In this document: positions 59,131 through 63,121 of the stretch, piece by piece | Numbering within the stretch: position 1 is the first letter of the stretch | Layout: each line of letters opens with the position of its first letter | NCBI RefSeq assembly: GCF_000265295.1 | Contig: NC_018002.1 | Location: forward strand, 2,170,001-2,234,000 | DNA from: Sulfurospirillum barnesii SES-3 | GTDB taxonomy: Bacteria; Campylobacterota; Campylobacteria; Campylobacterales; Sulfurospirillaceae | Direction of reading: 5' to 3' | Length of the DNA: 64,000 nt | Program-made: the position numbers and the translations under genes | Notes under the pieces: model-generated | Seen by the model: the letters and a program-made list of their open reading frames with translations, nothing else | Databases searched by the model: none | Told to the model about the DNA's origin: nothing

Positions 59131-59958
59131 ATGAATCAGTCTAATGTGGTTGTTTATAACGATGGAGAAATCGAGCTAAAAGTTTCTGTGAATGAAGAAA
59201 CACTATGGTTAAATGCAGAAGATATTGCTTATATTTTTAACGTAAAACGACCTGCTATCGTTAAGCATATCGGAAATATCTATAAAGATGAGGAACTGAT
59301 GGAAAATGTAACCTGTTCCATTTTGGAACAAGTTGCGAAAGATGGAAAAGTCAGGAAAATAAATTTCTATAACCTCGATATGATTATCTCTCTTGGCTAT
59401 CGTGTCAATTCAAAAAAAGCGACAAAATTTCGCCAATGGGCAACATCCGTACTCAAAAACTACATCCAAAACGGCTACGCACTCAATTCACATAAAATCA
59501 CAGAACAACGCTTATCAAGCCTTGAAAAAGATGTGGAGGCTATCAAATCTCACATCAAAAACAACACGCTTGAAATGAAAGAAGGCATCTTTTTTAATGG
59601 ACAAGTATTTGACGCATATGCTCTTTTGTCCGACCTCATCAAACGTGCCAAAGTCTCCATCACATTGATAGACAACTACATTGATGAGTCTATCTTGACC
59701 CTCTTTTCAAAAAATAAAAGTGTAAAATTCACCGTTTACACGGGGAACATCACCAAACAACTCCAATTAGACATTGAAAAATACAACAAACAATACGGCA
59801 ATCTTGAAGTGAAAACTACTCAAAACTTTCACGATAGATTTCTCATTTGCGATGAGAGCGTGTATCATTTCGGGGCAAGTTTGAAAGATTTAGGCAAAAA
59901 AGTATTTGCGGTCAATCCGATGAATATTCACGCACATGAACTATTAAAAAATATATAG
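59131..59958 (+). CDS. RhuM-family protein with a phospholipase D-like C-terminus
   Basis: A 275-residue protein. Residues 1-130 are RhuM-like: LWLNAEDIAYIFNVKRPAIVKHI, and INFYNLDMIISLGYRVNSKKATKFRQWATSVLKNYI. After a coiled-coil linker, residues about 150-275 resemble a PLD-like domain: AYALLSDLIKRAKVSITLIDNYIDES, then FHDRFLICDESVYHFGASLKDLGKK, an H-x-R-x4-D variant of the HKD motif with a trailing G-S-like segment. RhuM proteins are often encoded in restriction-modification loci. It lies 11 bases before the R-M gene. TACAAT at 59097-59102 may be its -10 box. Confidence 0.75.
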   Translation: MNQSNVVVYNDGEIELKVSVNEETLWLNAEDIAYIFNVKRPAIVKHIGNIYKDEELMENVTCSILEQVAKDGKVRKINFYNLDMIISLGYRVNSKKATKFRQWATSVLKNYIQNGYALNSHKITEQRLSSLEKDVEAIKSHIKNNTLEMKEGIFFNGQVFDAYALLSDLIKRAKVSITLIDNYIDESILTLFSKNKSVKFTVYTGNITKQLQLDIEKYNKQYGNLEVKTTQNFHDRFLICDESVYHFGASLKDLGKKVFAVNPMNIHAHELLKNI

Positions 59959-59969
59959 GAATTAAAAAA

Positions 59970-61997
59970 ATGGCACAATCCATAGAACCAAATATTGCAG
60001 ATTTAGCCAATGGTTGGTTAAAGTCTTACAAATTAGCTTATAAATTAGAGCAAGAATCTTTAAACAGCGAAATAGATAAAGCACTTGATGATTATTACTC
60101 CAAAAACGGTGGTATCGGTGGAAATCGTCCTGATGCAAAATTACTCCTGCAAGATAAAAATTTAGATTATTATCCTATTCTCATTGAGTACAAAGGCTAT
60201 AAAGGCAAACTTGAAAAACTTGATGCTAACAAACAAGTCGAAAATAAAACGGCTAAAAATGAACCTCATTTAAAAAATATCAACTCCTTTGCGGTAAACG
60301 GTGCGGTGCATTATGCCAATGCTCTTTTGCATCATACGAGCTACACGGACATTATTGCTATTGGAATGACAGGTTATAAAGATGAAAATAGTGGAAAAAT
60401 ACGCCATGAAATCGGTGTTTATTTCGTCTCTAAAAACAATTATGGTATTGGACAAAAAGTTGGAGACTTCTCAGATTTTTCATTTTTGAAAAAAGAAAAC
60501 TTCGATGCGTTTATCGAAAAAGTAAAAATGTTAAATCTACCGCAAGAAGAACTTGACAGGCTAAAAGAACAGCGAGAAAAAGAAATTGATGCAAGCTTAG
60601 TTAAGCTTAACAACGATATTTATCAAAATGAAAAAGGTTTAGGTGAAAACGACCGTGTGTATCTTGTTGCCGCCTCCATTATCGCAACGATTGGTATTCC
60701 AAATCAAGTTCCATCACTCGATAAATCAGAGCTAAAATCACAAGAATTTATCGGTGGACGAGATGGCGACATTCTCATCAATCGAATCACTGCTTTTTTA
60801 AATAAAAAAGAGTTACCGCAAGACAAAAAAGAGTTAATCATTAGAACTCTATCAAACACGCTTCTAACGGAAAATATCAACAAAGTAGAAAATGGCGAAA
60901 GCCAACTTAAAAGGGTTTTTACAAAAATAGTAGATGATTTGGGCATCTACTACAAGATAGGCTTAACGACTGATTTTACGGGAAAACTTTTCAATGAAAT
61001 GTACGGATGGCTAGGTTTTAGTCAAGACAAGCTCAACGACGTAGTGCTAACACCTTCTTATGTTGCAACACTCCTTGTAAAATTAGCCAGAGTCAATAAA
61101 GACTCCTATGTCTGGGACTTTGCGACAGGCTCAGCAGGACTTTTGGTTGCAGCGATGAATGAAATGCTTAACGATGCTAAAAATACTATCACGTCACCCG
61201 AACAGCTCTCTCAAAAAGAGATAAAAATCAAAGCCGAACAACTTTTAGGACTTGAATTACTCTCAAGCGTTTACATGCTAGCCATTCTCAATATGATTTT
61301 GATGGGCGATGGAAGCTCCAACATCTTAAACAAAGACTCATTAAGCGATTTTGACGGCAAATACGGTTTTGGCAAAACGGAAGAAACCTTCCCCGCCGAT
61401 GCCTTTGTTCTTAACCCGCCTTATTCAGCGAGTGGAAACGGCATGAACTTTGTCGAACGTGCCTTAAATATGATGAACAAAGGCTACGCCGCTATCATTA
61501 TCCAAAACTCAGCAGGTTCAGGAAAAGCCAAAGAGTATAACAAGCGTATTTTAGAAAAACATACGCTTATTGCTAGTATCAAAATGCCCATAGATTTATT
61601 TATCGGCAAATCAAGCGTGCAAACCAATGTGTATGTGTTTAAAGTAAACGAAAAACACCACAAAGATGAGATGGTCAAGTTTATCGACTTTTCCAATGAC
61701 GGCTACACACGAACCAACCGTAAAAAAGCAAGCAATAACCTTAAAGATTCTGACAGAGCCAAAGAGCGTTACGAAGAAGTGGTAAATCTCGTTCGTTTTG
61801 GGAAAAGCAAACTAAATATCTTTACATGTAAAGAGTATTATGAAGGCACAATTAACCCTAAAAATGGGGCTGATTGGAATCAAACCGCTCCTATAGATAC
61901 AAAACCAACACTAGCCGATTTTAAAAAAACCGTCAGTGACTATTTAGCATGGGAAGTATCCAATATCCTCAAAGGGCGAGGTGATTTGGGAAAGTAG
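59970..61997 (+). CDS. BcgI-like fused restriction endonuclease-methyltransferase subunit (zero-frame product)
   Basis: A 675-residue protein. The N-terminal domain has a PD-(D/E)XK-like site (P54-D55 ... E73-Y74-K75 in PILIEYKG). A helical region then leads to an N6-adenine methylase with WDFATGSAGLLVAAMNEML (motif I) and FVLNPPYSASGNGMNF (motif IV). This layout, R plus M in one chain with a separate S gene, is that of BcgI (type IIB) and related type IIG enzymes. The frame ends at TAG 61995-61997 directly after a GGGAAAG slippery heptamer; a -1 shift there would extend the chain into the specificity domain, giving about 1050 residues. GC is lower than in flanking genes, suggesting transfer. 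Confidence 0.85.
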   Translation: MAQSIEPNIADLANGWLKSYKLAYKLEQESLNSEIDKALDDYYSKNGGIGGNRPDAKLLLQDKNLDYYPILIEYKGYKGKLEKLDANKQVENKTAKNEPHLKNINSFAVNGAVHYANALLHHTSYTDIIAIGMTGYKDENSGKIRHEIGVYFVSKNNYGIGQKVGDFSDFSFLKKENFDAFIEKVKMLNLPQEELDRLKEQREKEIDASLVKLNNDIYQNEKGLGENDRVYLVAASIIATIGIPNQVPSLDKSELKSQEFIGGRDGDILINRITAFLNKKELPQDKKELIIRTLSNTLLTENINKVENGESQLKRVFTKIVDDLGIYYKIGLTTDFTGKLFNEMYGWLGFSQDKLNDVVLTPSYVATLLVKLARVNKDSYVWDFATGSAGLLVAAMNEMLNDAKNTITSPEQLSQKEIKIKAEQLLGLELLSSVYMLAILNMILMGDGSSNILNKDSLSDFDGKYGFGKTEETFPADAFVLNPPYSASGNGMNFVERALNMMNKGYAAIIIQNSAGSGKAKEYNKRILEKHTLIASIKMPIDLFIGKSSVQTNVYVFKVNEKHHKDEMVKFIDFSNDGYTRTNRKKASNNLKDSDRAKERYEEVVNLVRFGKSKLNIFTCKEYYEGTINPKNGADWNQTAPIDTKPTLADFKKTVSDYLAWEVSNILKGRGDLGK

Positions 61998-62037
61998 ATT
62001 CCCCACTTAACGAGAAACTAAAAAGCGTTGAGTGGGG
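61972..62037 (+). promoter_or_regulatory. Putative programmed -1 frameshift signal joining R-M and S frames
   Basis: Four parts line up. An SD-like AAGGG (61972-61976) lies 11 bases upstream of a slippery heptamer G_GGA_AAG (61988-61994), which overlaps a second one, T_TTG_GGA (61985-61991). The zero-frame stop TAG follows at 61995. After a six-base spacer, CCCCACTTAACG (62001-62012) pairs with CGTTGAGTGGGG (62026-62037), 12 bp with one G-U, closing a 13-base loop. G_GGA_AAG is the heptamer of the lambda G-T frameshift, and the arrangement equals that of E. coli dnaX. Confidence 0.75.
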
Positions 62038-63121
62038 TGAATTTAAATTAGATGATTTGTTTGAAGTTAAAACTGTAAAAAGTTTTGATGAAGGAAAATT
62101 AATTCTTACAGAACAAAAGCAGACTGATTATATTGAGTTTGTGGGGAGAACACGAAATAATAATGGGATAAAAGGATATTTACAGAAATTAGAAATAGAA
62201 CCAAATCCTAAAAATGTCATTTCTGTAAGCCAAATTGGAACTATTGTGGCACAAATTAGACAAGAAGAATGGTATGCAAGTCAAAATATATTTTCATTAA
62301 CTCAAAAAAACACTTATCAAAATTTAATCTCTTTATATAGTGTTGCAGTTATTAATAAATCGTTATGTGAAACCTTTTCAGATGGATACGGAAATTACCC
62401 AACGTTGGATAAATTAAAAAATCTTAAAATCCAACTCCCCATCAAAAATGGAAAAATAGATTTTGATTTTATGGAAAATTTTATAGCGGAGCTTGAAGCG
62501 GAGCGCCTAGCGGAGCTTGAAGCGTATCTATTAGCAACAGGGCTAATAGATACGACTTTGACGCACAAAGAGCAGAAGGTCTTAGAAGACTTTAAACAAG
62601 GAAAAGTTGAGTTTGGCACGTTTACGTATGAAAGCATTTTCAACAAAATTGTTCAAGGCAGAAGACTCAAAAAAGATGACCAAATTTCAGGAAATATTCC
62701 TTTTGTTATGGCAGGAACAACCAATACAGGCGTTGTAAATTATATTTCAAATCCTGTGGCACGTTTTCCTAAAAATTCAATTACGATAGACATTTTTGGT
62801 AATACATTCTATCGAAATTATGATTTTGGAGCAGGTGACGATACGGGTGTCTATTGGAATAACAAAAGAGAGTATTCCAAAGAAACAATGCTATTTTTTA
62901 CAGCATCAATGGAAAAATCAATACGTGGTAAATTTTCTTTTGGAAAAAAATTAAGAAGCTCTCAAAGTTTAAGCTTCAAAATGACACTTCCAACACAAAA
63001 CCATCAACCCGATTATGAGACAATAAATACCTTTATCTCAGCCATCCAAAAGCTCGTTATCAAAGATGTGGTTACTTATGCCGATAGAAAAATAGCCGCT
63101 ACCAAACACGTCATAGCATAG
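61994..63121 (+). CDS. Type I/IIB specificity (S) domain, probably made by -1 frameshift fusion
   Basis: The frame opens at 61985 and runs 375 codons from the frameshift point 61994. It has two target-recognition halves, starting at EWGEFKLDDLFEVKT and EFGTFTYESIFNKIVQ, each followed by a helical conserved region; a helical repeat, ELEAERLAELEAYLLA, separates them. There is no ATG upstream of the first conserved block: the first possible start is TTG 62057, which lies inside the conserved motif and lacks a ribosome binding site. This supports expression as an extension of the R-M chain. If produced alone it would be about 354 residues, like BcgIB. Confidence 0.75.
   Translation, partial: VDSPLNEKLKSVEWGEFKLDDLFEVKTVKSFDEGKLILTEQKQTDYIEFVGRTRNNNGIKGYLQKLEIEPNPKNVISVSQIGTIVAQIRQEEWYASQNIFSLTQKNTYQNLISLYSVAVINKSLCETFSDGYGNYPTLDKLKNLKIQLPIKNGKIDFDFMENFIAELEAERLAELEAYLLATGLIDTTLTHKEQKVLEDFKQGKVEFGTFTYESIFNKIVQGRRLKKDDQISGNIPFVMAGTTNTGVVNYISNPVARFPKNSITIDIFGNTFYRNYDFGAGDDTGVYWNNKREYSKETMLFFTASMEKSIRGKFSFGKKLRSSQSLSFKMTLPTQNHQPDYETINTFISAIQKLVIKDVVTYADRKIAATKHVIA
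62485..62524 (+). repeat. 16-bp direct repeat in the S-domain helical spacer
   Basis: AGCGGAGCTTGAAGCG occurs at 62485-62500 and 62509-62524, a 24-bp period that encodes the repeated AELEA segments between the two recognition halves. In EcoR124-type S subunits, change in copy number of such a repeat changes the length of the non-specific DNA spacer. Confidence 0.7.

Follow-up and report, generated by a model that had tools for sequence, protein, structure and literature searches.

A BcgI-like restriction-modification system in Sulfurospirillum barnesii whose specificity chain is very likely made by programmed -1 ribosomal frameshifting

The window, a stretch of 64,000 nucleotides from Sulfurospirillum barnesii SES-3, contains a BcgI-like (Type IIB/IIG) restriction-modification (R-M) system whose specificity chain (S) is very likely made by programmed -1 ribosomal frameshifting, which would provide both a restriction-modification chain (RM) and an RM-S fusion for an (RM)(RM-S) enzyme. 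The basis for this is found in the sequences: the slippery heptamer, the stop codon, the hairpin, the enrichment of Shine-Dalgarno-like (SD) elements, the missing start codons, the conservation of the junction, covariation in the stem, the exchange of heptamers, and relatives with an inverted arrangement. The slippage itself, its rate, the (RM)(RM-S) assembly, and the subunit ratio as the selected benefit are inferred, because there are no protein, ribosome-profiling, or reporter data. A first-pass annotation of the window had already proposed the frameshift, and the comparative conservation supports it, while the fused product is still an inference that has not been shown experimentally.

The RM gene, the S frame, and the junction in the window

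The BcgI-like traits are met in the window: the RM chain combines a PD-(D/E)XK nuclease with an N6 methyltransferase, and the S region behind it has two recognition domains, as in Sau42I and BcgI. The features, all on the forward strand, are the following.

59970-61997 (+): RM gene, 675 aa, the frame-0 product, with PD-(D/E)XK nuclease and N6-adenine methyltransferase
60129-60197 (+): nuclease motif PD (residues 54-55)...E73-x-K75; of the aligned homologues, 132 of 133 have E73 and K75, and 126 of 132 have D55
61413-61424 (+): methyltransferase motif IV NPPY (residues 482-485); N, P, and P are invariant in 134 of 134 homologues, the fourth residue is Y in 120 and F in 14
61971-61976 (+): second SD-like element AAAGGG
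61979-61985 (+): SD-like element AGGTGAT upstream of the heptamer, a better match than AAAGGG
61988-61994 (+): slippery heptamer GGGAAAG, phase G_GGA_AAG, read from the sequence
61995-61997 (+): frame-0 stop TAG, the end of RM, read from the sequence
61995-62000 (+): spacer TAGATT between heptamer and stem, so that the stem starts 6 nt past the heptamer
62001-62012 (+): 5' arm of the hairpin, CCCCACTTAACG, 12-bp stem
62026-62037 (+): 3' arm of the hairpin, CGTTGAGTGGGG, 12-bp stem with a 13-nt loop
61994-63121 (+): S region, in the -1 frame after the putative slippage, two target-recognition domains; 375 aa would be added to RM to give a 1050-aa fusion

RM matches the PADLOC model REase_MTase_IIG (PDLC03616) with E=1e-238 and Pfam N6_Mtase with E=2.5e-23, and is 28.6% identical to the RM protein of Sau42I (X94423) over 84% of the query. 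A phmmer search against solved structures gave no match. Residues D55, E73, K75, and NPP(Y/F) 482-485 are near-invariant among the 134 RM homologues compared. Pfam Methylase_S matches two stretches of the S region (E=1e-28), of which the first begins at residue 12 past the slip point, and PADLOC Specificity_II matches the region as well. Double-strand cleavage to either side of a bipartite site, and an assembly of two RM with one S, would be expected only by analogy with BcgI. The products are calculated to be 75.9 kDa for RM and 118.7 kDa for the 1050-residue RM-S, which refines the roughly 77 and 120 kDa estimated earlier. A RhuM/Bro-N-like gene (window positions 59131-59958; PADLOC PDC-S05, E=1e-99) is located directly upstream of RM. 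L061 and L002 also have such a gene 5' of RM (98.5% identical in the case of L002). In L019, L025, L060, L064, L081, L088, L118, and L124, a relative of it lies 3' of S on the same strand.

The last codons of RM read TTG GGA AAG TAG. The G_GGA_AAG heptamer, the immediate TAG, the six-base spacer, and the 12-bp stem are all found where the first-pass annotation had placed them. It had also proposed a second slippery site, T_TTG_GGA, overlapping the first. Only G_GGA_AAG is conserved in homologues and T_TTG_GGA has therefore been dropped. Similarly, the SD-like AAGGG pointed out before is present as part of AAAGGG, but AGGTGAT fits the SD sequence better; the 3' end of the 16S rRNA of this genome carries the anti-SD CACCTCC. 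The fold of the hairpin has a z-score of -5.0, and none of 200 shuffled sequences was equally stable. Because the genome encodes two tRNA-Lys(UUU) genes but no CUU species, plus a tRNA-Gly(UCC), both tRNAs can re-pair from GGA_AAG to GGG_AAA. When stimulators are present, G_GGA_AAG ranks among the top three heptamers for efficiency in E. coli, and stimulatory hairpins begin 4-10 nt past the slippery motif (PMC4066793). The criteria for bacterial -1 frameshifting that can be read from sequence, a phased conserved heptamer, a downstream structure, and an optional upstream SD-like stimulator, are fulfilled.

A TGA at 61982 closes the -1 frame, so that the S frame is open only from 61985. Within the window sequence, this frame contains neither ATG nor GTG before the first domain. 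Its first TTG, at 62057, has no SD and is part of the conserved LDDLF block, and Methylase_S begins about ten residues earlier. The former statement that S is exactly in -1, open from 61985, and without a usable start before its first domain can be read directly from the sequence. TTG 62057 and other internal S starts were considered and ruled out, because they have no SD, are inside the domain, and are not conserved.

Conservation of the junction among relatives

The homologues stem from GTDB and other genome sets as well as from phages, plasmids, and E. coli. Of 165 classified junctions, 120 have S in -1 and 14 have it in +1, while 18 are in-frame fusions and 13 are broken or truncated. An X_XXY_YYZ heptamer is present, in phase and within the RM/S overlap, in 118 of the 120 -1 junctions, while the rate of such heptamers in these genes, 1.34% per codon, would give 15.3 by chance. 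In the close group, all 75 distinct junctions have GGGAAA(G/A). Here, the codon before GGAAAR always ends in G although nine residue identities are encoded at this position, and GGA accounts for only 28% of the glycine codons in these genes. Diverged subfamilies have other heptamers in the same place (CCCAAAG, GGGAAAA, AAATTTT, CCCTTTT, AAAAAAG, and AAAAAAA), with the stop following directly or 1-6 codons on. C_CCA_AAG, found in Helicobacter-like genomes, reaches 54% in E. coli when combined with a pseudoknot (PMC4066793). S is open for 360-400 codons in most of the -1 loci. The RM trees contain at least three deep subfamilies, whose methyltransferase halves are 40-45%, 50-57%, and about 70-90% identical to that of the window, and each has frameshift-type members. 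As far as sequences can tell, the same -1 junction is retained across many bacterial phyla. Many loci are 78-88% identical and have been spread horizontally, and therefore the counts do not represent independent events; some metagenome contigs may also be assigned to wrong organisms. Strong homologues are few around G419 (Bacteroidota; 1 of 396 genomes), G420 (Clostridium; 3 of 399), and G421 (Acinetobacter; 2 of 399), the centre genome included in each case, which means that the family is found mainly in Campylobacterota, with sporadic members in other groups.

The hairpin is conserved as well. Its stem is paired in 95.4% of the cells of 69 aligned junctions, compared to at most 52% for slid control structures, and the covariation score of 0.272 was not reached in any of 500 shuffles (0.214 +/- 0.008). 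In L035 and L091, this position is occupied by another 12-bp stem. For the 118 loci, the mean folding energy of the 60 nt that follow the heptamer is -20.1 kcal/mol, compared to -7.4 as the background of the same genes. Every one of the 118 passes the 5% background threshold, also in subgroups whose stem sequences are unrelated. Sorted by junction type, the means are -21.1 for -1 loci, -12.2 for in-frame fusions, and -10.8 for +1 loci, and most of the latter two types do not have such a fold. The conservation of the stem could partly reflect the encoded protein (PLN..VEWGE), but the alternative stems of the subfamilies argue otherwise. In 36% of the junctions, 5 nt or more between positions -17 and -6 match the SD, compared to a background of 3.9%, an about ninefold enrichment. 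The first-pass annotation had named the conservation of heptamer, stop, and stem in homologous loci as a check of its proposal, and this check has been passed in dozens of phylogenetically distant loci. It had also considered that uninterrupted homologues would point to a simple mutation. This case does not apply, because only 18 of the 165 junctions are uninterrupted, mostly without a heptamer, and in the RM trees these are placed inside or beside frameshifting clades.

It could be supposed that ribosomes terminating at TAG restart at a nearby non-standard codon and produce a separate S, the heptamer being incidental. Coupled overlapping ATGs are indeed the rule in Sau42I-type and L. salivarius-type relatives, and in the H. 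pylori-like CCCAAAG-TGA loci a -1-frame GTG overlaps the TGA and could be a coupled start there, but not in the window. However, the S frame of the window has no ATG, GTG, or TTG before the TTG within the domain, and 78 of 118 homologues have no start codon within 13 codons of the heptamer. In addition, the -1 frame is conserved at the protein level (n=69): codon 7 is Leu in 67, codon 14 Val in 62, and codon 16 Trp in 68 junctions, while codon 11 is Leu in 66 by use of five different codons and codon 17 is Gly in 67 by use of four. Judged by this alignment, codons 7, 11, 14, 16, and 17 are under protein selection. Because this selection is found 5' of the first possible start of the window, ribosomes must enter the -1 frame earlier. 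A TGA as immediate stop would create an ATG or GTG in -1, but where an intact GGGAAAR locus has its stop directly after the heptamer, this stop is TAA or TAG (84 cases) and never TGA. The sole TGA at this position belongs to L133, a locus with a broken RM frame. Reinitiation would also leave unexplained why the heptamer is in phase and is swapped only for other slippery heptamers. We regard it as improbable.

Alternatively, a mutation could have split a former RM-S fusion, so that S is switched off in a decayed or phase-variable gene. R-M genes with frameshifts are frequently seen in Helicobacter and Campylobacter, many relatives have poly-G tracts in the middle of S, and HP1471/HP1472 and JHP1364/JHP1365 have been reported to be inactive, "most likely" because of the stop after RM and the absence of an S start (PMC3936762). 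It is hard to reconcile with decay, though, that the -1 junction has been kept across many phyla with S remaining open in most loci, and that there is selection on both protein and RNA at the junction. Homopolymers at GGGAAAG do not exceed three residues, and replication slippage is thus not expected. Also, the Hpy99XXII motif is methylated in most DNA molecules of native J99 (PMC4490391). The loss of S by such a split has very little to recommend it, and a simple mutation or pseudogene is ruled out by the conservation of the junction.

Transcriptional slippage at the junction, resulting in mixed mRNAs for RM and RM-S, would yield the same pair of products as ribosomal frameshifting, and A6-A7 runs exist in a few relatives (L139, L145). 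The runs in GGGAAAG, CCCAAAG, and CCCTTTT, however, comprise only 3-4 nucleotides, which is too short for RNA polymerase slippage as it is generally known. In the GeneTack analysis, transcriptional slippage was associated with poly-A/T runs above 7-8 (PMC3711429). Furthermore, the SD element and the hairpin act on ribosomes. We hardly consider slippage of the polymerase a serious candidate, and programmed ribosomal frameshifting is the reading that we follow below.

Inverted, fused, and phase-variable relatives

In two relatives, L151 (G295:C11) and L152 (G303:C1), the arrangement is inverted: frame 0 encodes the RM-S fusion through TTG GGA AAG TCT, and a -1 slip meets a TGA 11 codons later. 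Both keep GGGAAAG and a strong hairpin. Because the signal has been kept although it is not needed for the expression of S, this suggests selection for the production of both RM and RM-S. L156 has G_GGA_AAC with a -1 stop three codons on. For the in-frame fusions we had considered that they always contain a single recognition domain, for which a 1:1 ratio would suffice, but this is only partly true because the S lengths vary. L113, L119, L120, L152, and L161 have S parts of about 386-457 aa, and since some in-frame fusions thus carry two recognition domains, a separate RM chain is not universal. In L055, L074, L075, and L121, S comprises only about 176-215 aa. These four probably have one recognition domain and could act as symmetric homodimers. 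In the tree of full-length RM sequences the deep groups are stable, while the junction type is partly mosaic with respect to the RM type. For example, the junctions of L096 and L103 are near-identical, but in the methyltransferase half L096 shares 40% and L103 71% identity with the window. It is possible that RM bodies have been exchanged around a conserved junction.

In the Helicobacter-like loci, C_CCA_AAG is directly followed by a stop, S is in -1, and a hairpin is present; some 600 nt into S there is a poly-G tract. This matches the poly-G of HP1471, which is located between the recognition domains (PMC4209511), and we infer that these loci correspond to HP1472/HP1471 (the Hpy99XXII JHP1365/JHP1364 type). 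Insertion of a ribosome binding site and an ATG, together with mending of the poly-G, resulted in active Hpy99XXII, TCAN6TRG (PMC3936762). The startless S of H. pylori Hpy99XXII was read as a defect in that study, and frameshifting was not proposed. Because S was active from a separate added start, fusion is not strictly required for activity.

Poly-G tracts of 8-21 residues are present in the middle of S, about 580-660 nt past the RM stop, in L098-L110, L153, L155 (at 821 nt), L159-L171, L174, and L175, and a G10 is also found mid-S in L002 and L030. In the Campylobacterota relatives, we interpret these tracts as a second switch, phase-variable and additional to the frameshift, between one and two recognition domains. 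In L099, one base has been lost in a C5 run just 3' of C_CCA_AAG-TGA, which places S in +1 instead of -1; this run is possibly another on/off site. L126-L128 are from E. coli prophages and phage PhiR12_3 (PV340552), and the system is encoded in 30 of 5426 complete E. coli genomes. In the E. coli records examined, the annotated S starts 69-180 nt too late or is flagged as missing its N-terminus.

Proposed mechanism, stoichiometry, and significance

According to the proposed mechanism, ribosomes translating RM would be held up by the SD-like element and the hairpin, and tRNA-Gly and tRNA-Lys would re-pair from GGA_AAG to GGG_AAA. A fraction of the ribosomes would then pass the TAG and produce RM-S (1050 aa), while the remainder would stop and release RM (675 aa). 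RM-S together with a free RM chain would bring two nuclease/methyltransferase domains onto two target-recognition domains, which would be the layout of BcgI in two chains. BcgI consists of two RM and one S (PMC3874165), and the first-pass annotation had referred to this 2:1 ratio when it suggested that frameshifting sets the subunit ratio. The reference to BcgI is correct, but RM-S already contains one RM domain and therefore about equal amounts of RM and RM-S, not 2:1, would be needed. The shift rate would set the subunit supply, and an (RM)(RM-S) core would want a rate near one half.

Single-chain Type IIB enzymes like AloI, TstI, and CjeI have RM and S in one polypeptide. The fusion is the only product made, and there is one RM for two recognition domains, a ratio that has been termed a mystery (PMC3874165). 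In-frame fused relatives of this kind exist within the family of the window. The window differs from the AloI/TstI type by the TAG between RM and S, and both RM and RM-S would be made. An artificial HsdM-HsdS fusion of EcoKI (Type IMS) is active in vivo but needs added free HsdM in vitro (PMC3510504). This is an (M)(M-S) arrangement like the proposed (RM)(RM-S), but there the gene boundary was removed and no natural recoding is involved. It is from the 2 RM : 1 S composition of BcgI, the mystery of the single-chain enzymes, and the need of the EcoKI fusion for added M that the (RM)(RM-S) core is inferred. Compared to Sau42I and BcgI, the S of the window is in -1 and startless, with a frameshift signal 5' of it. 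A Sau42I-type outgroup, which is about 30% identical, has S in +1 at its own overlapping ATG and neither heptamer nor hairpin. Since S has no independent start, the window encodes a variant and not the standard two-gene BcgI-like form. The signal resembles E. coli dnaX, which also has an SD-like element, a slippery heptamer, a hairpin, and two products sharing their N-terminus. The earlier view that the whole plan copies dnaX is correct for the layout of the signal but not for the direction of the products: slippage results in the shorter product in E. coli dnaX and in the longer one in the window. Only L151 and L152 have the dnaX orientation.

We favour, with less assurance than for the mechanism itself, that -1 frameshifting is ancestral or near-ancestral in a widespread BcgI-like branch and evolved to provide a set RM to RM-S ratio, and that lineages can invert it or drop it by in-frame fusion. 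This would explain active systems with a seemingly startless S. We could not find an earlier account of frameshifting in an R-M system in the open-access literature (REBASE and subscription papers were outside the scope), and within this limit the former statement that no such system has been described holds. Frameshifting and BcgI-like R-M systems are each known; what is new, to our knowledge, is that they are combined, and that this combination is conserved and also exists in an inverted form. If the proposal is true, this would be the first R-M system expressed via programmed ribosomal frameshifting, as far as the open-access literature shows, and a case of phylum-spanning cellular -1 frameshifting without dependence on A-rich slippery sites. 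In the main screen for prokaryotic recoding, clusters were picked with seven A-rich heptamers (PMC3711429), and this screen would therefore have missed the R-M junction family. Genome annotation currently trims the N-terminus of S or marks it as missing, as in the E. coli prophage copies. The family would provide many natural -1 signals in which heptamers and hairpins are interchangeable. It would also offer an answer to the questions how the startless S gene of H. pylori is expressed, and from where an RM-S fusion with two recognition domains could obtain its second catalytic domain.
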